Notes under the pieces: generated by a model
Told to the model about the DNA's origin: nothing
The model's database searches: none
Seen by the model: the letters and a program-made list of their open reading frames with translations, nothing else
Made by a program: the position numbers and the translations under genes
In this document: positions 538 through 39,133 of the stretch, one piece after another
How positions within the stretch are numbered: position 1 is the stretch's first letter
How the letters are laid out: each line of letters starts with the position of its first letter
IMG/VR virus record: IMGVR_UViG_3300005096_000010
Coordinates: 1-42,792 of that record
Origin: a virus
DNA length: 42,792 bases
Reading direction: 5' to 3' (one strand)

Positions 538-3500
538 TTATTTTGCTATCAATTCTCTTTCTTTAACCTTAAATTTATTCTGCAAATAAATATATTCAAA
601 ATATTCTTCGGGCTTAAATTTACGTGCTTTTATCTTTATTCTCAACACTTTTAATCGCTCTTTATCTTCCGTTTTCCATTTTTCAACGAGTTTCCAATTC
701 TGTGTAATAATATCTGCAATCTGTTTGTCTTTTTCCTTTTTCGTCAATTTCTTATTCCGCTGAATAGAGCGAATCCGTTTGATTGTGTATTTAATAAAAG
801 GCTCTAATGGATGCGGATTCTCTGTATTTCTGCGAATTAACATTTCACGATATTCACGATAAAATCTCTGCGTGTATTTGTTTCTTAGCGGCATATCCCG
901 TGCAAATAATGTACCGATGATAGGCAGATCTGCCAGTTCTTCGCGCTTTTCTTTTTCCTTTATACCCGTAACTGCTTCTACTGGTCTGATAATTCGGCCA
1001 AATAATCCGCCGGTATAAGCATTGAGTAAATATTCTAATTGAATTGGTGATATACCATCAATCCCCAGCGGTTTCAATATCTTTTTCACCGCCATTTCGG
1101 CTGTCTTGGTGGTCCAGGGATAAGTAATTTCAGACGGTGGTTTTGTTTCTCGCGCATATTTAGGCTCAATAGGCCTGCCCGCCCAATCCTTATTTGCCAT
1201 AACCTGCATATAGGGGCCGATTCCAGCAATATTCATTGGCAAGGGGAATAGACTTACAAATTGTTCGTAAAATAAATATTTCAAATACTCTTCGGTTACT
1301 TCGGGATCATTTTCTAATTCCAGAAGCAGCGTTTGTGTAGCCCCATGAAACAGAGCACCTATGACAAAGGGCGTAGGAATGATTAAATGCGTTCCGTTTA
1401 TCCAGAAGTGGAAATAATTATATCGGAAATGTGGTTCCAGTTTTTCCCATTCATCTCTATTCCGCAGAAAATAAGAAAGCATTGATAGCCCTACAAGCCA
1501 TACGATCCCTTTCGCGAATCGTTTTGCGGCATTAATTCGGGTGTAAACTGGTCTTTGTGTGTAAGGATCATAGCCAGTAATCTCTTTTTCTGTGAAGAAA
1601 GCACGGATAAATTTTGAGAATCCCTGGATACCCGCATTATAGAATGGAATAATCTGATTTAATTCACGACCAACGGTTCCTGCACGTGCAAAATCCACAG
1701 TCACATCCTGGCTGGCCCTGGCGGCTCTGGCAAAGGCTTCCTCTTTGTCCCCGGTCTCCTTAAGTACTTTATAGTAAACTTTTTTAAACTCATCAATGCG
1801 TGTTGCATTTTCAATGGCAGAAAACAGTAATCTTAAGCCTTCAACCGGATGTTTCATCCCAAATTTAATTACATTCCCGTCCACACGTTCGATGAGCAAA
1901 TCGGCCATGGCTTCGAGTTTCGCGCGGTCATATCCGGCCATGGTGGACATCACACCACCAGATTTTGCATAAAGCTCGGCCATCTTTGGATCAATGCCCA
2001 GTTGCTTCAACACATCCGATACTTCCTTTCCGCGCATTAGTTCGGATATTAGACCGCTAACTGTATTGTGTAATGGGATTGTTTTTCCGCTTTGTGACAT
2101 TACCAAACCTTCAAAAGAATCCCGGAGTGCGTTACGGATAAATATAAAAGAAGGATTGATACCCGTAGCGCCGAGGCGCACTGCCCTTGCAAAAGGGGCA
2201 AGAAATTTAGCAAGTCCAGTAACAGGTTTCGCGTCAATCTGCATAATGAATTTATAAAGTTCTGGGTGCAATTCATACCATTTGCGTCTTCCATTTTCCC
2301 AAACAGATACTACTGGAATACCCTGTTTGTTGAAATAAACCTGCGTAAAAAAAAGATTCAATTTTATATCGATGTCCCCGATATCTTCATTTGGTTCTAC
2401 CACGCCAAGATCTGTTAGCATATCTACTAAATTATTTACACTAATTGTCTTTGCCTCCACCGGCGGGCTGGTCTTTTTAATCAATGCAGACAGACCTTCA
2501 AAATTGGTCAAATTGACCATAGCATTCATTAACCGCGCTTTCTGGGCCCATATTACCATTCGCTCCGTATGTTTAATCCACGCATTTATCATTGGCTCCA
2601 ACGGTAAATCAGATCCCTTCGCACGCTTGATTGGTGAAGGTTGATTGGCCAAACCTCTTCGAGTAATAGCATAAACAAGGTCTTTATCACTTAATAAATT
2701 CCTGAGCAAAGGAATGTAATATGGGTATCGATCACGCATCTTCTGATAGAGCTCTTCGGATATACCACCCTCGCGCATGACCATTCGCAAAAGTTCATCA
2801 AAATATTTCGTTACTTCATCGCCGAGATCATCAAAATCCTTATTTTTGTACTTATCTACAATGTACCTTGCCTGCTCTTCGGAAATCCCCGGATTTTTCG
2901 GTTCAACACCCTCTTCCACTGGATTCCACCAGGTCAATGCATGTCTTGCATAGATGTACATCAGAAAATCATCTAATCGATGTCCGCGATCTACGACATC
3001 TTTAAGGATTTGCCGGATGCCACGGGTAATTGTTTCACCAGTATGAATATCGTAAACCCCATTATTAATCATTTCATCGGCAATCGCTCCAGCTTTCATC
3101 TTAAAATTGCGGTAAATATGAATGGGATTCTCTTTTGCCCTGAGACCATAATAGTTAGCTCCCAGCATCTTTTTAAATAACCACTCAACAACTGCCGCAT
3201 CATCAACGAATTTCTGACGCAGACGCTGATAGAGCAACGCGATACTGTTTAGCGTGTGTTCAAAAGGTGAATCCCCGATATCCTTTAGCACTTCTTTAAT
3301 TCGTTTAAGCCGATTTCTCGGTTCTGTTAGGCCCGCTTGTGCTTTGACAAAATTCTCGATCCCCTGTTCTCTAAATTTCTTAATTAATTTCCGTGCCTTA
3401 CGGAAGCTTTTATTTTTATCATGTTTTTCAAGAATCTCACTTTCAAAATATTCTGTAAAGTTAGGTGCATATCGTTTTGTATCTTCTCCAGTTAACCATA

Positions 3501-6500
3501 AACGAATGAATTCAGAAAACCCTTCGGCAGTGCGTCTCAAATCCTGATCATAGTCCAGATTTCTTAGCTCAGCGTTGAAAACTTCTTTGCCGAAGTCTTG
3601 ATCAATATCCACTTTACCAAACATGCGATTTTGCAGGTAATGACCTAATTCATGGGCAATAGCGTCAATATCTGCTTCACTTCTGGATTTGACCAATCCG
3701 TAAACGTAATATTTCGCTTTAATCTCTTTGAGCCATCGATCCAGATTTTTCTTTCTGAATTGGACCTCCGGGAACAGCTTACGTAATTTTCTGATCAAAT
3801 CCTTAGTGGACATTGCTTCCTGCTCGCCCACATCAACAATCAAATCCGCCGGAGCCTGAATCGGACGAACGGTGCCAGCTGCCACAGCAAATCCTTCTCC
3901 TTGGCGCCGTCTCCGGATGGATTTCCCCTTTTCTTCAAGAATTTCATTTACTAATGCTTCGCTGGATTCAACAATGCCTTCTTCAATATCAAGTTTTTTG
4001 ACATCCCCTTTTACCGTTGCTCCCAGCGCTTTCATTTTATAAGAAATGATTGCCTTATTCCATTCATCGACTTCTGTATCAGAAAAAATAAAGTAAACTT
4101 TTGCACGGGATTTAGTCGTTACACGAACAATACGGCCAGCCATCTGGACGTTATCCATCGCTGAAAATGGCGGCGTAATAACAATCATACTTCGCGGCTT
4201 ATCGCCGATTACATCATCCAGATTGATGCCCGTACCCCCGCTTTGTGGGGTTGCCACCAATACCTTAGTTTCACCTTTTTGAAAACGCTGGATTTCTTTT
4301 TTCGCGTCTTTATTAGAACCATATACTCTGGAAAAAGAATTTTCCCCGTATTTCTCCGTTAAAGCTTGCTCTAATTCTTTTATCGTTCCTTCAGTGGCAG
4401 AAATAACCTCCACATGGTAGTCCACGAGATTACCAGATTGATCATAAATTGGAGTTCGATGAACAACTTCTGTTGCATTAACTCTTGTGGCAAATACGAC
4501 AACTTGTCTACCTTCTTTAATCTCTCTCTCAATGATTTCCAGAGTGGAATTTACTTTGTAATATTCTAAAGCCCGGCGTTGCGCCATGAGATTCCTGGCC
4601 TTCAGCAATCCATCCATTTTTGGATCGCCGGTCATCATATTTGTATAATATTTGTCGATGGCCTCAAGATCAATGTATGCCTGATCAGGTAATTGAACCG
4701 TTACAACTTCCACATCCAGCTTATCCAATGATACTTCACGTTTAACCATCTTTCCTTCAGATGTAAGCTGGTCAAAGTAACGGGACAAATTAGCGGCCAT
4801 TTCTGCAGCAGTTACATCCGGTTTCCTGGAATAGTAAATGATTTCTTTTCTGCCATATTTCGTGTTGATTTTTCGACGTACTTCAATGACACCCAGTTCA
4901 TTAAGGATGGCCAGGAATTCATTGTAGTCTTTAAAAATCCCGAGCTTATTCAAATAATAAATTTGTTGGGGTTTGTCTAATGGTGTGGCCGAAGCATAAA
5001 GTACCCGCGCGGAATATTCGGCAAGTCTAATCCCGTTTTTCGCTTTGGCGCTTTTATCAAAATTTTTCAAATTGTGAGATTCATCGAATATTAAAACAGA
5101 TAATCTCGAACCAATAGACAATGGGATCTTTTTGCGTGTAAGGTCATGATATGTAGCTACATAAATTTTATTGTCTTCAATGTTCCCTTTGAACCTCTCA
5201 ATTTCCACTCCGAGTACAGCCGCATCCTTTTCAAACGCATCTTTGATAATTCGATCGTTTTCCGTAATGATTAGCGCAGGTTTGTTTTCTCTGTCCGCAT
5301 AATATGCCGCAATAGCAAGTTCTTGCATTGTTTTTCCTGCACCCGTTCCATCGGCAAGTAAAAAACCACCATTTTTATCAATGGATTCAATTGCCAGATT
5401 AACGCCATCTCTTTGATGTGGTTTTAAAATTCCGCTAATGCTCGGATGTAAGTGATCCTCCGACGGACTCCGGGTGAATTCCGACCGCGCTTCGACAACT
5501 TCTTCGTATTTTCTTGGACTTCGTGGTAAAAGTCGGTATTTACGTCCACGACCACTTTCTTTTGCAATGCTTTTCGAAGTCTCTTGTGATTTGCCTTCAT
5601 CTCTGGCCTCCTTATGATCTATTAATTGCTTAATTAAAACTCGATTTGCATCAACACGGAATGTTGCCAAATCATCCTCAACGAAATCCGGGTGAATCTC
5701 AACAATCTCACCATTATTAAGTACCCGAACAATTGTGCCAGTAACTTCCTTTTCCCATTCTTTTTCCGGTTTAACCAGTACCTTAGTCCCATAGAATCTT
5801 TCTTCTTCCTCAATGGGCACTTTACCGATGACTTTATCAAATGAATTTTCTTCTGCCGGTTTGTTGATAGTTACTAACCGCACCTTCACTCCAGTCGGTC
5901 TCTCGGAAGAAAGAAAAGCTCCTTCTGGCAACTTCTCACTTTCCCCACCAATTCGCGCTAACCATTCACGAAATTCGACGCTCTTTTTATCTGTTCTATT
6001 AAATGGGCCTTCACTCATGATGGCCACAAGTTTGCCACCGGGTTTAAGCAGTCGATAAGCATGCTGGACATGATCAATGTCTTGACCGTTCTCAAACGGT
6101 GGGTTCATTAAAATTTTATCGTATTCTCCTTCAAATTGCAGAAAATCCTGGCCGACGATTTTAAATCCGCGCAATTCCAGTAATTCACGCAATGTTGAGC
6201 TAATCTCGATAACATCCGGTTCAACGCCTGTTTTCTCACGTATGACCAATGCAATATTCCCTTTTCCTGCACTTGGTTCTAATACCTTATCGCCCTTTTT
6301 AATATCAGCGATTTCGACCATCCGCTCCGCAATTGGCTTTGGAGTCGGAAAGTAGCTTTCTATTTTTGTTCCGATTAATTCACGTTCACGTTCCTTAATC
6401 TTTTCTTCTTTAATTTCAGCTTCAGTTTTTGGTCTGATGTATTCATTTAATAACTTCTTAACTTTTTTTAAGTCACCCGTTGTCTCAATTCCTGCACGCT

Positions 6501-9500
6501 CAAATCGCCTGATTTGTTTGATCGTATCATCAAGTATTTTCAATGTTGGATTGATTTCACCTTTTTGTTTCTTAATCGCCTTCAGAATAGATTCTACAGC
6601 ATCGATTTCAACATCAGATAATATAGCTTTTGCCCCTTCACCGGATAATCTCTTTTCAATTTTCTTGATTATCGCTTTATCTTTGGAAATCCCTTTTACA
6701 TTTTCACTGTCTTTCAGTAAATCGTTGAGTCGGAATGGATATAAAACAACTTCCGGAAAATTTTCTAATCTGAGTACATCTTTAATAATTTGCTGAGTGT
6801 CCAATTTGAAAAGAGCAGAATTCAATTGGCCTTTTTCCGCATCTGTGATCATTCCCTTAATGATATCTCTCACTTTCTTAAGAAATTCCGCTTCCCGGGC
6901 CATACCGGCGGCAATTCTTGCCCTTCTCGGCGTAACACGTTGTTGAGCAATCGCCGGATTTTCCAGCTCATCAATTTTCTTTTCAATGCCGGGTAAAATC
7001 TTTTCTAATTTTTGAGCTAACTTCTGCTGATCAGTTGGAGGTTGTTTTTCTTCTTTCTCAGCTTTTTCAGGAACAGTTGGAGCCGTTTCAGTTGCTTCTT
7101 CAATTCCTCGGTTGATGGCATCACGACGACCTTGTTTGATTTCCTGGATGGTTTCATCCTTTACACCTTCCTCTCTTATTTCATTTTCAAGATTCTCTAT
7201 TTGACTGAATAGATCTAATTGAGATTGCCGTATTTTTTTAAGCGCTTCATCTCGGTTCTGCTTTAACTCAATTAATTCCTTTTGAATTGCGGAAACTTTC
7301 TCTTCATAAGGCTTTAGCGCATTAATTAATTGTTCACCTTCAGCCCCTTGTTTCAGAAAATATTTACGTTTTTCATCAAGCTCTTTCTTGGCATCTTTGA
7401 GTTCGCCTTCTAAATGCGCGATTTTTTCATCGTATTCAATTTCATCTGCACTACGTGGTACAAGATTTTTCAGATTAAGAGGTTGGCCTTTAATTCCACC
7501 GAAAAGTCCACCACCACGTTTCTGGATTGCGCGATTTATGAATTCTCGGAATTCTGAAGATGTACCGAATCGTTTACCAAATTCCATTAAATAATCCCAC
7601 ATCTCAGTTTCGTGGGAATCTTCAAGTTCCGTGAATTGACGCCTGGCCTCCCCAACCCATTGGGCATATTTAACTACATCCGGATCTTCACCAGTGCGTT
7701 CAAGCGCTTCAATAACTTTACCGTCTGGATTTAAGAAAGAATAAGCAAGGATTCGATTTGCGTTTCGACCTTCGTATTTTTGTGCTTCTTCAATGATTTC
7801 CTTTCTGCTTTTCCCCTGTCTTCTGAGTTCACGGTAGTATTGAGCACGTTCGACGGCCGTTTCTTTTGTGGCCAATACATTCGATCGTTTAGCGATTTCC
7901 TGAGCTTCCTGTTTACTTACTCCTCGAATGATTTTGGCAGGGATTTTCTCAAAATCCGTTAGACCCTCTTTTGCTAATCGCTTAAAAGCCTCAGTTCTTG
8001 AATGCCCGGCAAGGATATACAATTCATTCGTTTCCGGATCTTCCCACAATAAAATTGGATCGAACTCCTCAAATCGGAATTCACCCTTTTTTGCAGCCTC
8101 AACAATTCGATTTACAGACTCTTCGCTGTATTCACGTTTGCGATTTTGAAAGGCATCAACATCGGTTTTAATTTGAGATAAAGGTATATCAGAAATTTGG
8201 ATTTTTTCTGTTGGTTTAAGTTCCTTCCGTTCCTTCAATTTATTTTTGATTCTTTCATATAGGTTTTTAATTAAATTATAATTCTCCTCTAATTTTTTCG
8301 TCATTGCATCATCGGGCATCTTCTGGCGCATTTCTGCAAGAGAAGGTTCAACTCTTTTCATGTAATTTTTTAATTCCTGAAGGATTACATCAGCGTTGTT
8401 AGGTTGTTCCTGCTTCAACAATAATTCAGCACGTTCAACGAGTCCTGATATGAGATTATCTGGTTTTTCTGGTGTTCTACCTTCAGACTTCTCTAATAAT
8501 TTGTTGTTTATGTCTTCATATTTTTTAAATAAGTCTGGATAATTGCTAAGGATATCGGGTGGGACTGGATGACCTTTTAAAATCTGCTTTTCAATAGTCT
8601 TTTTATGTTGAATCAATTGAATTTCATCAAATAAGTTACTCTCAGTTAAATCTTTGCCTTTCTTTTTCAGTTCTCTTCTGGCGATCTGTTCTACTTGTTC
8701 ATCGGATAGATGGGCATATAGTGTTTTTTCTTCGGCTTCCTTCTCTTCCTGTTTTTTCCGATAGGTCTTAATTTCATCCATGAATCGTTCATATGGAATG
8801 ATCTCAACATCTTTAGCTTCTTCTTCAAATCGCTTTCGACTCTCCTTATCTAATTCATGGATTTCTGGACGATATCCAATTGTGGAACCTTGCGGATCGT
8901 TAACCAAAACAACTGCCTTCTTGGCGCCCGGGACAAACTGTAACCCTACATATTCGACCGGGATTTTCTCTTCTTTTTCTGGTACCGCTTCTTCGCCCTT
9001 TCGACCTTCTTCCGGTCGTATCCCGGATATACCGGGTTGTCCGGGTGCTGGCTGTTCCAGATCCTTGCGGCCTTCCGTTTCGCGGCCTTCAGGGGCAATC
9101 CTTCTCTCACGAATTTGTCCCTCATCTTTTCGTAACCTTTGGGCATTTTCTATTTCCTCCGCTAATGCCTTTTTGCCAATCTGGAAAATATTCCCTTTGT
9201 CATTCTTTACTGTCACTAAAGATCCTGTAATATCAGTAATCTCAACCGGGCCATATTTTTCTGTATCTACGATATTTCCGATTTTAATCTCAGCAGGCTT
9301 CTCAATTCTTTGTTTAATAGGCTCCTTCTTCTTTTTTGCGCGTTGTTTAATTCGTTCCAACTTTTCACGATCTATTTTTTCCCTGCGTTTACGCTCTTCC
9401 TCGCCGCGAACATTAATGCGTTCATGAAGTTGTCTTTGTTTAAACTCTTCCAGTGTTTCACCGAGACGAACGGGGCCACCTGGACGTTGAACATTTAATG

Positions 9501-10800
9501 CTTCGCGCTTGGCAATTTCATCAAGGATCTGTCGATATTGCTCTTCTTCTGCTCTCTCCATCCTTTGTTGTTGGATCGCATTAATTGCATCGACGTTAAT
9601 CTGTCCAACAGCTCGACCACCCAGCAAGATAGCCATGGGGCCGGCGGATTCTAAGAGTGTACGCATTACGTTTATGAAATAGTCACGGAGACCGAAGTTT
9701 TGGACATCTGTTCCAGCGATCAAATTTGATATCTTTCGTCCCACATCCTGAAAGATCATTTGCGATAATTCCTGTAAACCTTCTTCGCCAACTTCCTGAA
9801 TCCAGTCGCGCCCATATCGCTTTACCATCTGCTGGACATACTCTTTAGCCGTATCGGCGATAATACGGTTTGCTGTTTGTTTGAGGCCTGGAAAAATTTT
9901 CGCTGCCTGACTGAATTCTATGGCTGCATAGGGTAAACCACCTGCCTGTGAAACAATAGAAGCTATTTCTCTGGGTATCCCTTCACGACGAAGATCCCTG
10001 TACAAATCCCCAACACCTTGCCGATACCAATATTGTGCGGATCCAATAATAGTACCAATCGATGCTGCAGCCGGGACTGTGAAAACTTCTTCTGGAGCAA
10101 GGATTTGTGGCCCGGCCTGGCCTGCGGCAGCTGCAGCGCCTGCCAGTGCACCACCGTAAATTAAACCTTCAAGCGTACCCTTTGCCATGGGGCCAGCAAT
10201 ACCAGCGGCACCATAAACAAATTTCTCCAGCCAGTTGCGTGCTTTAATTGGATCATCTTTGTACATCTCAATAAATTTCTTTTCCGCTACCTGCCATTCG
10301 CGATCACCACTTAATCCAACTGCCGCCTGATAAGCAAGATGATCGATGTTAACATCTTCCATAGACCGCTTAAATGATTCCTTTAGATTCTCAAGGAATC
10401 CTCTCGGTCTGGGTTCAAGTTTGGGCAATGGCTTTTCTTTAACTCCCGGGGCATACTTTAAACCCGCAGGGAGAGGCGGAGGAGTAACCTCTCCCTGCTG
10501 TGGTTCGGCCGTGGGAGCTGGAGGAGGTACGGCAGAAGGAGTAATCTTTTCTTTTCGGAGTTGTGGCAACTCTCTGACTCCACCAGCAAGCGTAATTAAT
10601 TTGGCTTCTGCTGGCTCCTGTGGGCCAGGGGCTTTATATTTAATTTTTCCTGCGAATCTTAACGTGAAAGCACCCAAAAATTTATTGTAAGGGATGTCTG
10701 AATAATATTTCTTATGAATCCCTTTCAGGATTTGATCATCAGAGAGATCATTGTATTGCGGGTATTTCTCCCTGAAATTTTTGAGTGCCTGATCAATCAT
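538..10800 (-). CDS. Giant polyvalent protein: ParB-like, N6-adenine methyltransferase, SF2 helicase and metallopeptidase domains (3420 aa)
   Basis: This single 3420-residue frame fills a quarter of the window. The N-terminus (1-50) has the YPQYNDLSD-type motif seen on phage internal proteins, followed by a Pro-rich linker and an Ala/Gly hydrophobic stretch near 195-260. A ParB/Srx-like region with AGHSR at 931-935 lies within about 870-1050. A class I methyltransferase has EPSAGKG at 1508-1514 and NPPF at 1566-1569, the adenine-N6 signature. An SF2 helicase resembling Strawberry-notch proteins has Walker A DGTGAGKT near 1817-1824, DESH at 1906-1909 and MAGRIVRV near 2220. A zinc peptidase motif HELGH is at 2383-2387. 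The long C-terminus resembles large-polyvalent-protein-associated regions and has hydrophobic segments near 3080-3130. Such proteins are thought to be packaged and injected with the DNA, protecting or remodelling it on entry. The start overlaps the upstream stop (ATGA). Confidence 0.9.
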   Translation of the reverse strand: MIDQALKNFREKYPQYNDLSDDQILKGIHKKYYSDIPYNKFLGAFTLRFAGKIKYKAPGPQEPAEAKLITLAGGVRELPQLRKEKITPSAVPPPAPTAEPQQGEVTPPPLPAGLKYAPGVKEKPLPKLEPRPRGFLENLKESFKRSMEDVNIDHLAYQAAVGLSGDREWQVAEKKFIEMYKDDPIKARNWLEKFVYGAAGIAGPMAKGTLEGLIYGGALAGAAAAAGQAGPQILAPEEVFTVPAAASIGTIIGSAQYWYRQGVGDLYRDLRREGIPREIASIVSQAGGLPYAAIEFSQAAKIFPGLKQTANRIIADTAKEYVQQMVKRYGRDWIQEVGEEGLQELSQMIFQDVGRKISNLIAGTDVQNFGLRDYFINVMRTLLESAGPMAILLGGRAVGQINVDAINAIQQQRMERAEEEQYRQILDEIAKREALNVQRPGGPVRLGETLEEFKQRQLHERINVRGEEERKRREKIDREKLERIKQRAKKKKEPIKQRIEKPAEIKIGNIVDTEKYGPVEITDITGSLVTVKNDKGNIFQIGKKALAEEIENAQRLRKDEGQIRERRIAPEGRETEGRKDLEQPAPGQPGISGIRPEEGRKGEEAVPEKEEKIPVEYVGLQFVPGAKKAVVLVNDPQGSTIGYRPEIHELDKESRKRFEEEAKDVEIIPYERFMDEIKTYRKKQEEKEAEEKTLYAHLSDEQVEQIARRELKKKGKDLTESNLFDEIQLIQHKKTIEKQILKGHPVPPDILSNYPDLFKKYEDINNKLLEKSEGRTPEKPDNLISGLVERAELLLKQEQPNNADVILQELKNYMKRVEPSLAEMRQKMPDDAMTKKLEENYNLIKNLYERIKNKLKERKELKPTEKIQISDIPLSQIKTDVDAFQNRKREYSEESVNRIVEAAKKGEFRFEEFDPILLWEDPETNELYILAGHSRTEAFKRLAKEGLTDFEKIPAKIIRGVSKQEAQEIAKRSNVLATKETAVERAQYYRELRRQGKSRKEIIEEAQKYEGRNANRILAYSFLNPDGKVIEALERTGEDPDVVKYAQWVGEARRQFTELEDSHETEMWDYLMEFGKRFGTSSEFREFINRAIQKRGGGLFGGIKGQPLNLKNLVPRSADEIEYDEKIAHLEGELKDAKKELDEKRKYFLKQGAEGEQLINALKPYEEKVSAIQKELIELKQNRDEALKKIRQSQLDLFSQIENLENEIREEGVKDETIQEIKQGRRDAINRGIEEATETAPTVPEKAEKEEKQPPTDQQKLAQKLEKILPGIEKKIDELENPAIAQQRVTPRRARIAAGMAREAEFLKKVRDIIKGMITDAEKGQLNSALFKLDTQQIIKDVLRLENFPEVVLYPFRLNDLLKDSENVKGISKDKAIIKKIEKRLSGEGAKAILSDVEIDAVESILKAIKKQKGEINPTLKILDDTIKQIRRFERAGIETTGDLKKVKKLLNEYIRPKTEAEIKEEKIKERERELIGTKIESYFPTPKPIAERMVEIADIKKGDKVLEPSAGKGNIALVIREKTGVEPDVIEISSTLRELLELRGFKIVGQDFLQFEGEYDKILMNPPFENGQDIDHVQHAYRLLKPGGKLVAIMSEGPFNRTDKKSVEFREWLARIGGESEKLPEGAFLSSERPTGVKVRLVTINKPAEENSFDKVIGKVPIEEEERFYGTKVLVKPEKEWEKEVTGTIVRVLNNGEIVEIHPDFVEDDLATFRVDANRVLIKQLIDHKEARDEGKSQETSKSIAKESGRGRKYRLLPRSPRKYEEVVEARSEFTRSPSEDHLHPSISGILKPHQRDGVNLAIESIDKNGGFLLADGTGAGKTMQELAIAAYYADRENKPALIITENDRIIKDAFEKDAAVLGVEIERFKGNIEDNKIYVATYHDLTRKKIPLSIGSRLSVLIFDESHNLKNFDKSAKAKNGIRLAEYSARVLYASATPLDKPQQIYYLNKLGIFKDYNEFLAILNELGVIEVRRKINTKYGRKEIIYYSRKPDVTAAEMAANLSRYFDQLTSEGKMVKREVSLDKLDVEVVTVQLPDQAYIDLEAIDKYYTNMMTGDPKMDGLLKARNLMAQRRALEYYKVNSTLEIIEREIKEGRQVVVFATRVNATEVVHRTPIYDQSGNLVDYHVEVISATEGTIKELEQALTEKYGENSFSRVYGSNKDAKKEIQRFQKGETKVLVATPQSGGTGINLDDVIGDKPRSMIVITPPFSAMDNVQMAGRIVRVTTKSRAKVYFIFSDTEVDEWNKAIISYKMKALGATVKGDVKKLDIEEGIVESSEALVNEILEEKGKSIRRRRQGEGFAVAAGTVRPIQAPADLIVDVGEQEAMSTKDLIRKLRKLFPEVQFRKKNLDRWLKEIKAKYYVYGLVKSRSEADIDAIAHELGHYLQNRMFGKVDIDQDFGKEVFNAELRNLDYDQDLRRTAEGFSEFIRLWLTGEDTKRYAPNFTEYFESEILEKHDKNKSFRKARKLIKKFREQGIENFVKAQAGLTEPRNRLKRIKEVLKDIGDSPFEHTLNSIALLYQRLRQKFVDDAAVVEWLFKKMLGANYYGLRAKENPIHIYRNFKMKAGAIADEMINNGVYDIHTGETITRGIRQILKDVVDRGHRLDDFLMYIYARHALTWWNPVEEGVEPKNPGISEEQARYIVDKYKNKDFDDLGDEVTKYFDELLRMVMREGGISEELYQKMRDRYPYYIPLLRNLLSDKDLVYAITRRGLANQPSPIKRAKGSDLPLEPMINAWIKHTERMVIWAQKARLMNAMVNLTNFEGLSALIKKTSPPVEAKTISVNNLVDMLTDLGVVEPNEDIGDIDIKLNLFFTQVYFNKQGIPVVSVWENGRRKWYELHPELYKFIMQIDAKPVTGLAKFLAPFARAVRLGATGINPSFIFIRNALRDSFEGLVMSQSGKTIPLHNTVSGLISELMRGKEVSDVLKQLGIDPKMAELYAKSGGVMSTMAGYDRAKLEAMADLLIERVDGNVIKFGMKHPVEGLRLLFSAIENATRIDEFKKVYYKVLKETGDKEEAFARAARASQDVTVDFARAGTVGRELNQIIPFYNAGIQGFSKFIRAFFTEKEITGYDPYTQRPVYTRINAAKRFAKGIVWLVGLSMLSYFLRNRDEWEKLEPHFRYNYFHFWINGTHLIIPTPFVIGALFHGATQTLLLELENDPEVTEEYLKYLFYEQFVSLFPLPMNIAGIGPYMQVMANKDWAGRPIEPKYARETKPPSEITYPWTTKTAEMAVKKILKPLGIDGISPIQLEYLLNAYTGGLFGRIIRPVEAVTGIKEKEKREELADLPIIGTLFARDMPLRNKYTQRFYREYREMLIRRNTENPHPLEPFIKYTIKRIRSIQRNKKLTKKEKDKQIADIITQNWKLVEKWKTEDKERLKVLRIKIKARKFKPEEYFEYIYLQNKFKVKERELIAK

Positions 10801-20657: not shown

Positions 20658-22556
20658 TTACACCTCTACGTTTTGGTTCAATCTATTTACAACCGGTTCA
20701 CTCCCATTTGTTGGGACGGAAGCAAGCCCGGCCTTTTGTTTCGCTAAATCGAGCATGGCTTTGGTAACCTGAAATGCTTCGGCCTGCTGGCCTTGCTGGA
20801 TCTGCTGTTGCACCAGTTGATACCAATTTTCGATCACCCGGCGGATGCCAGTGAGATCCAATTCACCAAGCCACCATTCCGGATCGATGATAAGCACCGC
20901 CTGCGGGCCAAAGAGCTGGAATATTTTGTCCACGATTTCGGTTTTTTGCAGAAACCTCACGTGTCGAGATGTCGGGTTGTTGTCGATCTGTTCCGGCGTA
21001 ACCTGATATTCACCGACGGTGATGTCGTTGAGGATATGATCGCCGATTCGCAAATTGATGTAAATTTCTTTTCGCTCGAATGTTTCCGGATCTGCGACAA
21101 GGAACATCCTTTCGCTGGTGTAATACATCTGGATAAGTCGGATTTCTTTGTTCAGCACGCGATTCCGCATGCGATCTATGTTTTTCACCACCGGAATGAA
21201 ACTTGTAAGCGCTCGTTGCACTTTCTGCGCGTAGAGAGAAGCCGGTTCGTTCGATGATTCTGCGAGCCCCTGCAAGTTCGGCGTGATCCCGGTCACCCGG
21301 TAAAGGAATTCAACTGCTTCTACTGAAAGCCGATCGGTGTTTGGGATCGTCTGCGGTGGATCCACTCTGCGCCATACTTTTGTGATATCATCAACGTCCT
21401 TTTTCACCACAAGGTCAACTCCAGGCTGGTGAATAAATCGTGACGCATCCTTTTCATTCACGAAAGCGCCTTGTTTTCTGATCTGCCCGGGATTCGCGGT
21501 CTTGTTTACGATATCCAGCGTTCGATTGTGTAGGTCATTGAACTCTTTTTGCGGCCCTTTGGCGTTTTTGAAAATACCAAAGTGATCAATCGCCTGTTTT
21601 GTATAGGGATAGGCGACAAATCTTATGTAATCGTAGGTGCCATCCTGCAGGTCTGCCATCCGTTCCTGCAAATAGAAGTTCAAACCGGGTATAACTTCAG
21701 TAATTTTCTTGATCTTCGCTTCTTTTTCAATAAGCTTCATCTGCGGATTCGCACGGAGAAACAGTTCGCGCCTTTTCTCTGACAGATTTTCAACGACAAC
21801 TTCCTCGCGCGTAAGCGTGTCATAGGCTACGAGCACTTTTTCGTACATGATTTCATGGAATTCGATCACCCGGTATTTTCCTTCCTTTTTGTCGACGAAG
21901 TCCGGGTGCTGCATCATTGCCGCAAGGTCAAGGGTCGCATTTTCCATATATCGGCTCTGCTCAATGTCGTCGATGATGGTCTTCAATTTCGAGCGGTGCT
22001 GGGGCCACAACCGAAAAATATCCTCGACAAGCAGGAATCGGGAACGTATCAAATACGCGGCATCGTCCAAAAAGTCCTCCCGGGCACGGGAATCGAACAT
22101 AATTTCAAATTCGTCAACGTTTTTCACGACAATAGAACCGTCGACTTGCAGTTCGTTCGAATACCGCGGGAATATGTACCCGTGTTTCACCAGACCAGCC
22201 AGAATGGTTTTCCCGAGCTCAAATTCGAATTCAGTTTGCTGATTTTCGTGCAGAATGATGTCTTCAAGAAGCGCCGCAATTTCTGGATCGCCACCACGCT
22301 TCGCAAAAATGCGAATGCGCTGTTGATTCTGATATAAATCGCCGAGAGCTTGATTGAATATCGGCAAAAGAAGGTTGAATACGTTTGTGGGGCGACGCTG
22401 GGACTCATACCACCTTTTCTGCTTCTCAGTATACTGCTCACCCGCGAGGAAAAGGTATCCCTCTTCGATTTCGTCATAGATACGCTTCCACGTTCCGTAC
22501 TCATTTAGGAACGTCTGCGCGATTCGGGATACCCTTCTGTCTTTTTCTACACTCAT
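20658..22556 (-). CDS. Portal protein, P22-like
   Basis: 632 aa. The N-terminal half has the P22-type portal layout: a helical start, then LFLAGEQYTEKQKRWYESQRRPTNVFN and NQALGDLYQNQQRIRIFAKRG, where the virus commits to a clip and wing domain. The C-terminus (QLVQQQIQQGQQAEAFQV) is helical and could form part of the barrel. It follows the terminase and zinc-ribbon genes, overlapping by 4 bases. It forms the dodecameric ring through which DNA is packaged and released. Confidence 0.9.
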   Translation of the reverse strand: MSVEKDRRVSRIAQTFLNEYGTWKRIYDEIEEGYLFLAGEQYTEKQKRWYESQRRPTNVFNLLLPIFNQALGDLYQNQQRIRIFAKRGGDPEIAALLEDIILHENQQTEFEFELGKTILAGLVKHGYIFPRYSNELQVDGSIVVKNVDEFEIMFDSRAREDFLDDAAYLIRSRFLLVEDIFRLWPQHRSKLKTIIDDIEQSRYMENATLDLAAMMQHPDFVDKKEGKYRVIEFHEIMYEKVLVAYDTLTREEVVVENLSEKRRELFLRANPQMKLIEKEAKIKKITEVIPGLNFYLQERMADLQDGTYDYIRFVAYPYTKQAIDHFGIFKNAKGPQKEFNDLHNRTLDIVNKTANPGQIRKQGAFVNEKDASRFIHQPGVDLVVKKDVDDITKVWRRVDPPQTIPNTDRLSVEAVEFLYRVTGITPNLQGLAESSNEPASLYAQKVQRALTSFIPVVKNIDRMRNRVLNKEIRLIQMYYTSERMFLVADPETFERKEIYINLRIGDHILNDITVGEYQVTPEQIDNNPTSRHVRFLQKTEIVDKIFQLFGPQAVLIIDPEWWLGELDLTGIRRVIENWYQLVQQQIQQGQQAEAFQVTKAMLDLAKQKAGLASVPTNGSEPVVNRLNQNVEV

Positions 22557-22831
22557 TTTCCCCCACTCAGGTGTTTTTCAGCAAATTCTTCCCAGGTCAT
22601 GCCGAAATCCTTTTTCAGAACGTCTACTGTAATTTTCGTCGGGATAATCGGTGTATGGAAGCCGCATTCACAGCACGAATAGAATCCGAACATAGGCGGC
22701 TCTTCCGGGTGGACCACCCAATAATTTTCCCAACGAAACCATGTTTCCATCTCACATTCTGGGCACCGACCGCGACAATAATTCGGCGCAAATGACCGCC
22801 ACACATCCTGTATCCAGCGATACAATTTCAT
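22553..22831 (-). CDS. Zinc-ribbon protein B, paralogue of the neighbour
   Basis: 92 aa with two Cys pairs, CPECEMETWFRWE (about 24-36) and SCCECGFHT, a treble or ribbon zinc site. The first motif is nearly identical to CPACEKETWFRWE in the next gene upstream, so the two arose by duplication. It overlaps both the neighbour and the portal gene by 4 bases (ATGA). A function in packaging or in host transcription is possible. The family is not known to me. Confidence 0.75.
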   Translation of the reverse strand: MKLYRWIQDVWRSFAPNYCRGRCPECEMETWFRWENYWVVHPEEPPMFGFYSCCECGFHTPIIPTKITVDVLKKDFGMTWEEFAEKHLSGGK

Positions 22832-23064
22832 TTTTCCTCCTTTCGAAAAATTTCTTCTGCCGACACACCGAAATGATCCCGGAAATCACACATTTCGGTC
22901 GGCAATACAGCCGAATACCCACCACATTCGCAACACCGATACACGCCGCACATCGTGAATTCGTCCATTTCCCAACGAAACCATGTTTCTTTTTCGCACG
23001 CAGGGCAAAGGCCACGATCGTAATGACGCGAATGCTTTCGATACATTTCAAGAAGCCTTTTCAT
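22828..23064 (-). CDS. Zinc-ribbon protein A, paralogue of the neighbour
   Basis: 78 aa with CPACEKETWFRWE at about 20-32 and RCCECGGYS near 43-51. These four or five Cys residues should bind one zinc ion. It is the shorter of two tandem copies located between the large terminase and portal genes, an uncommon place for zinc proteins. It overlaps the terminase stop by 4 bases. The function is unknown. Confidence 0.75.
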   Translation of the reverse strand: MKRLLEMYRKHSRHYDRGLCPACEKETWFRWEMDEFTMCGVYRCCECGGYSAVLPTEMCDFRDHFGVSAEEIFRKEEK

Positions 23065-25857: not shown

Positions 25858-25870
25858 GTTTGGGGCTGGT

Positions 25871-25940
25871 CTCCCTCGCCTGGTGGCCCCAGCGGGCTGA
25901 AAACCCGCGGGCCCCGGTTCGATTCCGGGAGAGGGAGCTA
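25871..25940 (+). tRNA. tRNA-like element 1, GAA-type (Phe-like), short D-arm
   Basis: Acceptor CTCCCTC (25871-25877) pairs with GAGGGAG (25931-25937). The anticodon stem GCGGG/CCCGC has loop CTGAAAA, with anticodon GAA at 25899-25901. The T-arm CCCGG-TTCGATT-CCGGG is perfect. The D region is only 14 bases, with at most a 3-bp stem GCC/GGC, and one extra A sits between the T-stem and acceptor. The 3' end is CTA rather than CCA. It is therefore a reduced tRNA or mimic rather than a normal one. It lies in the gap before the next gene's ribosome binding site. Confidence 0.6.
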
Positions 25941-25973
25941 AAGGCTACAAAAATAAAAGGAGGATGATTCATT

Positions 25974-26228
25974 ATGTTTTACAAAAAATTTCACCGGTAT
26001 GCAGGCAGTGACGGGGTACTTTATTACTGCACATCTCCCGCCACTGCAGAAAGTTTTTTTAAATTAAAACCTGCCAGTTTTAACGCAACATGGCAGGGGA
26101 CTGTCCCTGTTTATCGCCGCGGAGATGGCGAATTATTTGCCGCCAACTTCCGCGGTGATGGGGGAGAGCAATTGAAACGAATCACCAGGGGCGTTTACGT
26201 CCGCTGGCATGGGGATGGTGTGTATTAA
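25974..26228 (+). CDS. Small protein, unknown (84 aa)
   Basis: The start is at ATG 25974, after AAAAGGAGGATGATTCATT. It is rich in aromatics and Gly (FHRYAGSDGVLYYC; PVYRRGDGELFAANFRGDGG), probably beta-rich. It is flanked by tRNA-like elements on both sides. No family is recognised. Context suggests a regulatory or accessory role in the rightward module. Confidence 0.7.
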   Translation: MFYKKFHRYAGSDGVLYYCTSPATAESFFKLKPASFNATWQGTVPVYRRGDGELFAANFRGDGGEQLKRITRGVYVRWHGDGVY

Positions 26229-26238
26229 GTTTTCAGCG

Positions 26239-26306
26239 GGCCCGTCTTGGTAGGAATGCGGGCCTTGAAACCCGCGGTCGAGGGTTCGAATCCCTCACGG
26301 GCTCCA
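26239..26306 (+). tRNA. tRNA-like element 2 with CCA end and 8-base anticodon loop
   Basis: The acceptor GGCCCGT (26239-26245) pairs with ACGGGCT (26297-26303; one G-U), followed directly by CCA at 26304-26306. The T-arm is perfect: GAGGG-TTCGAAT-CCCTC. The anticodon stem GCGGG/CCCGC encloses CCTTGAAA, 8 bases rather than the normal 7. The D region is only 12 bases and has no clear stem. The loop would place UGA (Ser type) or GAA (Phe type) as the anticodon depending on register. A degenerate or specialised tRNA is likely. Confidence 0.55.
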
Positions 26307-26318
26307 AAGGCCGGCCTA

Positions 26319-26365
26319 CCCGGGCGGAGATTTTCGGGGCAACCCCTTTGAATCCGCCGCCCGGG
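26319..26365 (+). other. Strong RNA hairpin between tRNA-like elements
   Basis: CCCGGGC (26319-26325) can pair with GCCCGGG (26359-26365), and GGCGGA with TCCGCC, competing for the same three G/C bases. The inside has a further GGGG-CAA-CCCC hairpin (26336-26346). Downstream, the run GGGGTTCAAAAAGGG can pair instead with CCCCTTTGAA from the loop, so two folds are possible. No T-run follows, so it is not a simple terminator. It could be an RNA-processing or regulatory structure. The stretch between here and 26434 holds no other feature I can identify. Confidence 0.45.
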
Positions 26366-26433
26366 GCCCCGGAAGGGGTTCAAAAAGGGATTGAAAGAGG
26401 GTTGCCAGCGCCGACGGCTGAGACGGTCGATAT

Positions 26434-26510
26434 TGCGGGGTGGAGCAGTCTGGTAGCTCATCGGGCTCATGACCCGAAGGTCGCAGGTTCGAATCCGGGA
26501 GGGGGAACTA
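26434..26510 (+). tRNA. tRNA-like element 3: initiator-Met-like (CAT) with non-matching 3' end
   Basis: The first 61 or so bases look almost exactly like a bacterial initiator tRNA-Met: TGCGGGG start, D-arm GAGC-AGTCTGGTA-GCTC, anticodon stem TCGGG/CCCGA with CTCATGA loop (CAT at 26468-26470), variable AGGTC, and T-stem GCAGG plus TTCGAAT. Total length is 77, as in E. coli tRNA-fMet. The 3' strand is CCGGGAGGGGGAACTA, not the expected complement of the T-stem or acceptor. It matches the 3' end of element 1. A hybrid or decoy is implied. It ends just before the ribosome binding site of the sigma-like gene. Confidence 0.6.
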
Positions 26511-37874: not shown

Positions 37875-38163
37875 TGTTTGCGTACCTCCTTAAATTTGTC
37901 AGCTCCTCTTCTATATTTAATAATGCCTGGTATATTTCTTCAGCGTCTTCGGTTTGTATCTGATATTTATATTGTATTTTATAATAAAGATCATCCAGGA
38001 TTTCTATGTACTTATGTATGATTCTTAGAAGATATGACCGGCAACACTCCATACAATACCTGCCTGCCTCAAGGTCATAAACCTGATCTTTATCGTAATC
38101 GATTTTTTCAGCGCAAATTGAACATACTGTGATGCTTTTGTTAACCTCTAACATCCCCGGCAT
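37867..38163 (-). CDS. Zinc-finger protein (98 aa)
   Basis: CSICAEKIDY and RYCMECCRSY provide two Cys pairs. The rest is helical and charged. ATG at 38163 or 38154 is possible; the first is preceded by GGAG. Overlaps the membrane protein gene by 23 bases. Role unknown. Confidence 0.65.
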   Translation of the reverse strand: MPGMLEVNKSITVCSICAEKIDYDKDQVYDLEAGRYCMECCRSYLLRIIHKYIEILDDLYYKIQYKYQIQTEDAEEIYQALLNIEEELTNLRRYANNE

Positions 38164-38569
38164 GGCTGGGCTCCAGTTCTTTTTGCAATTGAATCAAATT
38201 TTTCAGTAACGATTCAATGTCGATAATGCTGTTTTGCGGTCGGATATCCAATTCCTGAAACATTGTTTTCAGATCCTGGATTACATCAAATGCTCTTTGG
38301 AAATTCTCATGGTTAGTAAATACGAAAGCATGTGTGATCAGGCCATACATTTCATCCCGGGCTGGATTCATATTTAATTCGCCGATTTCCTCCCGCAAAT
38401 CCCACATGATTTTCATCACCCGGTGTTTAAATGATTGAATCTCTTTTTTCTTTGCACGGACGACCATTGGGGTCAGGGCCAATATCGCGCCGGAAACTTT
38501 TAATATGAGTAAAAGACTCAGAATAATCAGACTTAAGCCGATAATTAATAGAATTCGACGATCTTTCAT
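38141..38569 (-). CDS. Membrane protein (142 aa), possible exclusion factor
   Basis: Hydrophobic segments at about 6-40 (ILLIIGLSLIILSLLLILKV, then SGAILALTPMVV) form one or two membrane helices. The remaining 100 residues are cytoplasmic or periplasmic and helical (FQRAFDVIQDLKTMFQELDI). It is encoded next to the AcrIII-1-like gene in the first early genes, where superinfection-exclusion or anti-defence genes often lie. No family is recognised. Confidence 0.7.
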   Translation of the reverse strand: MKDRRILLIIGLSLIILSLLLILKVSGAILALTPMVVRAKKKEIQSFKHRVMKIMWDLREEIGELNMNPARDEMYGLITHAFVFTNHENFQRAFDVIQDLKTMFQELDIRPQNSIIDIESLLKNLIQLQKELEPSHAGDVRG

Positions 38570-38577
38570 GGCTCCTC

Positions 38578-38904
38578 CTATTTTAGTCTTTTAAGAATTC
38601 CGATTTCACAATTTTCAATGATGAAATCGATGCCAACTGAGCCTTTGATGGCGGGATCATCCAGACGGCGGGTTAAACGAAAAACCAGTGCCTCATCACC
38701 CGGTTTCATTTTAATCAATTTCCGATTAACTGGGATTTTTATTCCCACCAGCATTTCCAGTGCCTTGGCAGTTTCCTCGTAACCAAGAGTAGATTCCCAG
38801 GGATTCTCCTTTAACCATCGCCGGGCTTCATTAATGTTAATATGCAGATAAATATAATTTCCCGGTGTGGTTATCACGGCCGAATTGAGAATATAGTATG
38901 CCAT
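38578..38904 (-). CDS. DUF1874/AcrIII-1-family ring nuclease homologue, His to Tyr at catalytic position
   Basis: 108 aa, about the usual family size. The pattern ESTLGYEETAKALEMLVGIK, then IPVNRK, KPGDEALVFRL and TRRLDDPAI, ending in a short C-terminal strand, aligns with viral AcrIII-1/DUF1874 proteins such as SIRV1 gp29 (SIGHDST...NR...RLEEGK). Those proteins bind and cut cyclic tetra-adenylate to disable type III CRISPR. The catalytic His in the IGH motif is Tyr42 here (codon TAC, 38779-38781). It is the second gene after the early promoter, fitting an anti-defence role. Activity may be altered to binding only. The alignment is from memory, not a search. Confidence 0.85.
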   Translation of the reverse strand: MAYYILNSAVITTPGNYIYLHININEARRWLKENPWESTLGYEETAKALEMLVGIKIPVNRKLIKMKPGDEALVFRLTRRLDDPAIKGSVGIDFIIENCEIGILKRLK

Positions 38905-38905
38905 A

Positions 38906-39079
38906 TTACTCCTCCTTTATGATTTTTTGGACATATCGCCTAATTTGGCGAGCTTTCTTTGAATTCCTCTGGCGGGTAATTGCCATGCTAACAAATTGGC
39001 GGGAAACTCCGAATTCTTTGGCGATGTCTTCCAAGGTGATACCGCGACTCCACAGTAGTCGAACAATATAACTTGCCAT
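38906..39079 (-). CDS. HTH transcription regulator, Ner/Cro-like (57 aa)
   Basis: The start at 39079 (MASYIVRLLWSRGITLED) is chosen because the promoter -10 ends 26 bases upstream. The longer frame would begin in the promoter. A classic helix-turn-helix (LEDIAKEFGVSRQFVSMAIT) and a basic tail (KKARQIRRYVQKI) are present. It is first in the early operon and probably represses its own promoter through the palindromic site upstream. Confidence 0.8.
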   Translation of the reverse strand: MASYIVRLLWSRGITLEDIAKEFGVSRQFVSMAITRQRNSKKARQIRRYVQKIIKEE

Positions 39080-39095
39080 ATTAGATCCTGTTAAT

Positions 39096-39104
39096 GTTGT
39101 CAAC
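39096..39104. promoter_or_regulatory. Palindromic operator-like site GTTGACAAC
   Basis: GTTG-A-CAAC on the minus strand is a perfect inverted repeat around one base. It overlaps the transcription start region of the early promoter. The half-sequence TTGACAA occurs again at the -35. This is a suitable binding site for the dimeric HTH protein encoded next. Confidence 0.55.
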
Positions 39105-39133
39105 AAAATAGGGAATAAAAATAAGATTGTCAA
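39105..39133 (-). promoter_or_regulatory. Early promoter (sigma70-type)
   Basis: On the minus strand, a consensus TTGACA (39128-39133) and TATTTT (39105-39110) are exactly 17 bases apart. Transcription would start about 10 bases later, some 15-20 bases before the HTH gene. Promoter position just after the endolysin gene means that it starts the leftward early operon. The clearest promoter in the window. Confidence 0.8.

Follow-up and report, generated by a model that had tools for sequence, protein, structure and literature searches.

Background

The closest described counterparts of the gene considered here are AcrIII-1 of SIRV1 (gp29; structure 6SCF) and the Crn2 part of the Marinitoga Csx1-Crn2 protein (8Y7F/8Y7G), the latter of which has a His at position 495 and cleaves cyclic tetra-adenylate (cA4). 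The His of this family acts as a general acid (PMC7371418). When it is replaced by Ala in SIRV1 gp29 (H47A), the protein is inactive and binds cA4 with a KD of ~25 nM (PMC7213978); the equivalent H495A form of Csx1-Crn2 shows no cutting and binds cA4 at ~20 nM, and an S452Y substitution in the same protein strongly weakens cA4 binding (PMC7293037). That native AcrIII-1 serves as an anti-CRISPR is itself contested, according to a 2025 Nature item as it is cited in PMC13131331.

We describe here a phage gene of this family that encodes Tyr at the position of the catalytic His. It lies in a stretch of 42,792 nucleotides (IMG/VR record IMGVR_UViG_3300005096_000010), referred to below as the window. 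Its product resembles SIRV1 AcrIII-1 in fold, Pfam family, size, viral origin and the S38, G41, R61 and R80 columns (numbering of the window protein), but AcrIII-1 has the catalytic His and the Glu of an R-x-P-E-G motif, whereas the window protein has Tyr, a replacement of the Glu and a longer loop, and the two are 17% identical in a structural alignment. The equivalent of Crn2 Ser452 is retained in the window protein. The best fold match, at 30% identity, and also the best sequence match in the PDB, is AFV3-109 (2J6B), which, unlike the window protein, has the GH motif together with an R-L-P-E-G loop of regular form. Our search of the accessible literature found no description of Tyr forms.

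The window and the family assignment

The window is a contig of a tailed phage, with terminase, portal and capsid genes; a terminal repeat was looked for in it and none was found. The same sequence occurs as one contig (C494) of a 4.9-Mb, 533-contig assembly. Other features of the window include a phage protein of 3420 aa with DNA methyltransferase and helicase matches (538-10800, minus strand), two adjoining small CxxC proteins of 92 and 78 aa just downstream of the terminase (22553-23064, minus strand), which look like a tandem duplication, and a small cluster of tRNA-like genes (25870-26499, plus strand) composed of one for tRNA-Phe and two others that are odd or degenerate. The reading frame of interest is complete (Table 1). 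It follows a small HTH reading frame, listed from a TTG codon and more likely to start at an internal ATG at 39079, and it precedes a frame with a hydrophobic N-terminus, in keeping with the placement behind a regulator and beside a membrane protein that the initial annotation had given. For this downstream frame there was no PHROG match, and Pfam returned only a weak mSLOG match (E 0.05) below the cut-off.

Table 1. Coordinates of the DUF1874 gene, its flanking features and the residues discussed in the text
Feature	Position in window	Strand	Basis or remark
DUF1874/STIV_B116-like gene, GY subgroup, 108 aa (ATG at 38904, stop ending at 38578)	38578..38904	-	PF08960, AlphaFold2 model, Foldseek
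Strong Shine-Dalgarno sequence AAGGAGG, 5' of the gene's start	38911..38917	-	
Small HTH protein, directly upstream	38906..39133	-	Weak HTH/Sigma70_r4 matches; phrog_1468 repressor 3e-4
142-aa ORF with hydrophobic N-terminus, directly downstream	38141..38569	-	
Ser8	38881..38883	-	Aligned with Csx1-Crn2 Ser452
Tyr42, codon TAC, catalytic His column	38779..38781	-	Codon; subgroup alignment
Arg61, invariant in GY and GH members	38722..38724	-	
Arg80, family Arg of the R-x-P-E-G region, in all GY members	38665..38667	-	
Lys87, codon AAA, of the invariant Lys-Gly of the subgroup	38644..38646	-	L-INS-i alignment to Glu of R-x-P-E-G; register ambiguous

The assignment to the DUF1874/AcrIII-1 family, made from the letters alone in the initial annotation, is borne out by a Pfam match to PF08960 of 62.3 bits (E 5.1e-17; gathering threshold 26 bits). 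PHROG 5063, a family of unknown function, also matches (E 1.5e-15), and in the PDB the protein matches the sequences of AFV3-109, STIV B116 and the Crn2 part of Csx1-Crn2. A PADLOC profile labelled 'Csx16' (PDLC01147) matches the protein over its full length (E 1.7e-16). Models of Csx16 of the VVA1548 type gave no match to E 10 in Pfam or to E 1 in NCBIfam, PDLC01147 and PF08960 both also match the B. subtilis control genome, and the PADLOC profile thus appears to represent DUF1874 proteins. We have therefore rejected Csx16 as a family name, and the label of PDLC01147 may mislead annotation.

Predicted fold

An AlphaFold2 model of the window protein, built from a 20-sequence alignment, has a pLDDT of 91.7, with the lowest block (72) at residues 81-90, the altered loop. 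At E<=1e-3 Foldseek matched the model to 16 PDB chains, every one a DUF1874 family member, including 2j6b, 8y7f/8y7g (Csx1-Crn2), 6scf (SIRV1 AcrIII-1), 2x4i and 2j85. Two of these structures contain cA4: 8y7g, which is the H495A mutant of Csx1-Crn2, and 6scf. Matches between a predicted model and such structures establish the family fold and not the ligand. The product of the window gene thus truly belongs to the DUF1874 (AcrIII-1/Crn2) fold family, within which it falls into a distinct subgroup.

A subgroup with Gly-Tyr in place of Gly-His

Every alignment, pairwise or multiple, places Tyr42 at the GH-motif His, those with AFV3-109, STIV B116 and Csx1-Crn2 among them, and no His lies near it. 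A search of viral contigs with the window protein alone gave no match, and an alignment of the whole family was too divergent for a pattern search; small alignments recovered 13 further members that share the Gly-Tyr (GY) form. Eleven are in IMG/VR viral contigs (L028, L041, L040, L059, L060, L063, L064, L065, L071, L072 and L073) and two in bacterial chromosomes of the UBP16 lineage, namely those of UBA6123 (L013; 58% identity) and of a relative, genome G101 (L036; 56%). Gly-Tyr is present in all 14 subgroup members, and Gly-His in 21/21 other family members compared, a set drawn from archaeal viruses, phages of Fusobacterium, Vibrio and Hydrogenobaculum, and several bacterial genomes. The Tyr is thus fixed in close homologues, as the initial annotation had proposed checking, and it is a trait of the subgroup and not an oddity of a single phage.

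In an alignment of 11 members the invariant residues are N7, S8, V10, G15, Y17, Y19, W30, S38, G41, R61, M66, G69-A72, R76, L77, R80, K87-G88, E100 and G102; inspection shows that the Trp, the Tyr and the Lys-Gly are also retained in the three members found later. Trp30, Arg76 and Lys87-Gly88 are fixed in the GY subgroup, in which the family-wide columns S38, G41, R61 and R80 are also preserved (the retention of Arg80 in members with a PPG insert rests on the MAFFT register) and position 8 is Ser in every member. The initial annotation was right about the loss of the His and missed a second change, for the Glu of the R-x-P-E-G motif, found in 19/21 of the other members, is also replaced, and the loop that carries it is longer, so that the protein is not merely an AcrIII-1 that lacks its His. 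By L-INS-i this Glu aligns, across a subgroup-specific insertion, with Lys87 (11/11). In an alternative register the spacing of Asp83 to Arg80 equals that of Glu to Arg elsewhere; this acidic residue three after the Arg is absent from some members. In the structure models, the loop that leads from the strand into the last helix is ~3 residues longer in the window protein than in L014, a relative with the GH motif. Glu84 of L014 lies 3 residues after its Arg and 6 ahead of the helix. The window protein has Asp83 at 3 residues after the Arg and Lys87 at 5 ahead of the helix. As the loop insertion permits two registers, we do not claim a clean swap of Glu to Lys.

Phylogeny

In a tree made from all columns, the GY subgroup stands on one side of a branch with support of 100/99, and it falls within a supported set (96/87) that also holds a type III-B-linked sequence (L030) and three GH sequences (L014, L015 and L043). 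At the III-B-linked locus (L030/L039) the DUF1874 gene adjoins Cmr-type genes and Cas10. When the trait column and C-terminus are removed, the tree is weak (79 columns) and requires two changes, and a single clade is not rejected by the AU test (p 0.18). A single origin of the subgroup is thus likely as judged from all columns of the sequence alignment, and unproven once the trait region is left out. The two closest pairs have dN/dS values of ~0.04 and ~0.09, of which only the direction is safe since dS exceeds 1; with dN far below dS, these sequences indicate that the subgroup evolves under purifying selection.

Genomic neighbourhoods

In two of the viral contigs (L028 and L041) the GY gene adjoins a putative terminase, as read from the ORFs, and in a third (L059) a small HTH-like ORF. 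A fourth contig has a reverse transcriptase gene (L040:4054-5409, plus strand; RVT_1, E 3.6e-19) ~1.2 kb from its GY gene.

The chromosomal GY gene of UBA6123 lies between genes, on the same strand, for a JAB-type protein and for a 2138-aa fusion of the RNA polymerase beta and beta' subunits, and its contig also carries Cas1, a reverse transcriptase, the CARF nuclease Card1 and a CRISPR array of ~20 repeats. Pfam reports only JAB in the JAB-type protein, whose C-terminal extension we infer to be E2-like. The one-strand run of genes to which the GY gene belongs (contig DIVV01000024.1; L037:9762-18740 and L038:648-1178, both minus strand) consists of a 176-aa protein, the JAB-type protein, the GY-DUF1874 protein, the RNA polymerase fusion, which carries a DFDGD motif, a 299-aa protein and a sigma54-type AAA+ activator, and it adjoins Cas1, the reverse transcriptase, ThiF/E1 genes, a second JAB gene, the CRISPR array and Card1. 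A multisubunit RNA polymerase and ubiquitin-like genes of its own make this CRISPR island look highly unusual. The UBA6123 genome also has a type III-D locus, in which a Cas10d that bears a GGDD motif is accompanied by RAMPs, Cas6 and a CARF-HD-CYTH protein. This last, a 967-aa fusion of CYTH, CARF (NE0113-type) and HD-CE domains that adjoins Cas10d (L056:10840-13743, minus strand), is a candidate effector of cyclic oligoadenylate. In the G101 genome the JAB-GY gene pair and the Cas10 locus both recur. The CRISPR island together with the type III-D locus of UBA6123 ties the GY subgroup to cyclic-oligoadenylate signalling, and the CRISPR context of the chromosomal members lends indirect support to a role of the phage protein against type III systems. 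Cas10-palm matches occur in 30/82 genomes of the phylum; some of these matches may be other cyclases, since the profile also matches E. coli.

What the window protein may do

Since the His mutants described above bind cA4 uncut and Ser8 is kept, the simplest prediction for the window protein is binding of cA4 without His-driven cleavage, hence capture. Most probably, the dimer pocket of the family would still form and would hold a cyclic oligoadenylate, probably cA4; cleavage would be at most slow or altered, and fast cleavage would be absent. In a phage-infected cell with type III signalling, the free messenger would then be lowered, mainly through capture. The retained Ser8, Arg61 and Arg80, alongside the PF08960 match and the similarity of the predicted fold to cA4-bound structures, are consistent with this. 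An anti-defence role is suggested by the presence of most members in viral contigs and by the small HTH gene that precedes the window gene. The proposed working would be like that of the phage sponges Tad1, Tad2 and Acb2, in which the messenger is captured uncut; their folds are unrelated to that of the window protein. Several points weigh against this reading. A pure sponge has no need of an invariant Tyr and Lys-Gly, and if catalysis had simply been lost, position 42 could vary among several residues; an enzyme that removes the signal would serve a host CRISPR island better than a stoichiometric sponge; and a search of the host bin (G000) with a Cas10 palm profile gave no match, in a bin that is fragmented and whose link to the phage is unproven. 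Taking these together, we put the probability of this reading, in which type III signalling is dampened by a protein that binds cyclic oligoadenylate (probably cA4) and acts mainly by capture, at roughly 0.46.

The main rival reading is an active ring nuclease with a rebuilt site, in which Tyr42, Lys87 and conserved arginines would replace the His/Glu arrangement and would serve the attack of the 2'-OH and the stabilisation of the leaving group. Tyr42 and Lys87-Gly88 are jointly invariant (14/14), as working residues would be, and a copy in a host CRISPR island makes sense as a remover of signal. RelE offers a precedent by analogy for an RNA-cleaving fold that lacks the His/Glu pair: by superposition it has Lys and Arg at the catalytic Glu and His of its RNase relatives, and it cuts by means of Tyr87 and arginines (PMC2807027). 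However, changing the His to Ala abolishes cutting in two studied members of the DUF1874 family, and the correspondence of Lys to Glu varies with the alignment of the loop insertion; we consider this the leading competitor of capture and somewhat unlikely.

The fixed Y17, Y19, W30, M66 and R76 and the longer loop exceed a single catalytic change, and together with the lack of a Cas10 match in the host bin they fit a pocket re-tuned to a different messenger, which it would bind or cut: a cyclic oligoadenylate whose ring differs in size, SAM-AMP, or a cyclic dinucleotide or trinucleotide that serves some other defence system. The best-resolved chromosomal copy, however, adjoins a Card1 nuclease and a CRISPR array, and the Ser and Arg residues of cA4-binding members are retained, which makes a change of messenger distinctly unlikely. 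We hold it slightly less probable again that GY proteins are natural non-cleaving receptors built on the AcrIII-1 fold, with which hosts would detect the messenger inside a CRISPR island on behalf of an operon that has a ubiquitin-like module and an RNA polymerase of its own, the phage copies being decoys.

A role that has nothing to do with cyclic nucleotides, such as the regulation of transcription, could be read from the 'DNA binding protein' annotation of several family members (in lipothrixvirus records) and from the small HTH gene beside the window gene. A database annotation is no test, though, and the closest fold matches with a known ligand are bound to cA4, with a chromosomal relative in a CRISPR island, so that such a role seems improbable. 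Finally, private mutation or decay to a functionless AcrIII-1 that has lost its His, for which CAC to TAC would need one transition, is rejected as very improbable, for the Tyr is common to 14 sequences with identity down to ~34%, both of its codons (TAC and TAT) occur across the subgroup, and dN is much below dS.

Implications

The GY subgroup is real, widely spread and, within the literature searched, apparently undescribed. Pipelines that label every DUF1874 match as an AcrIII-1 ring nuclease may err for its members. The AcrIII-1 and Crn2 enzymes studied so far rely on the single His, and the GY subgroup, with its Tyr and loop Lys, provides a direct test of whether this fold can serve as a trap, support another chemistry or recognise another messenger.
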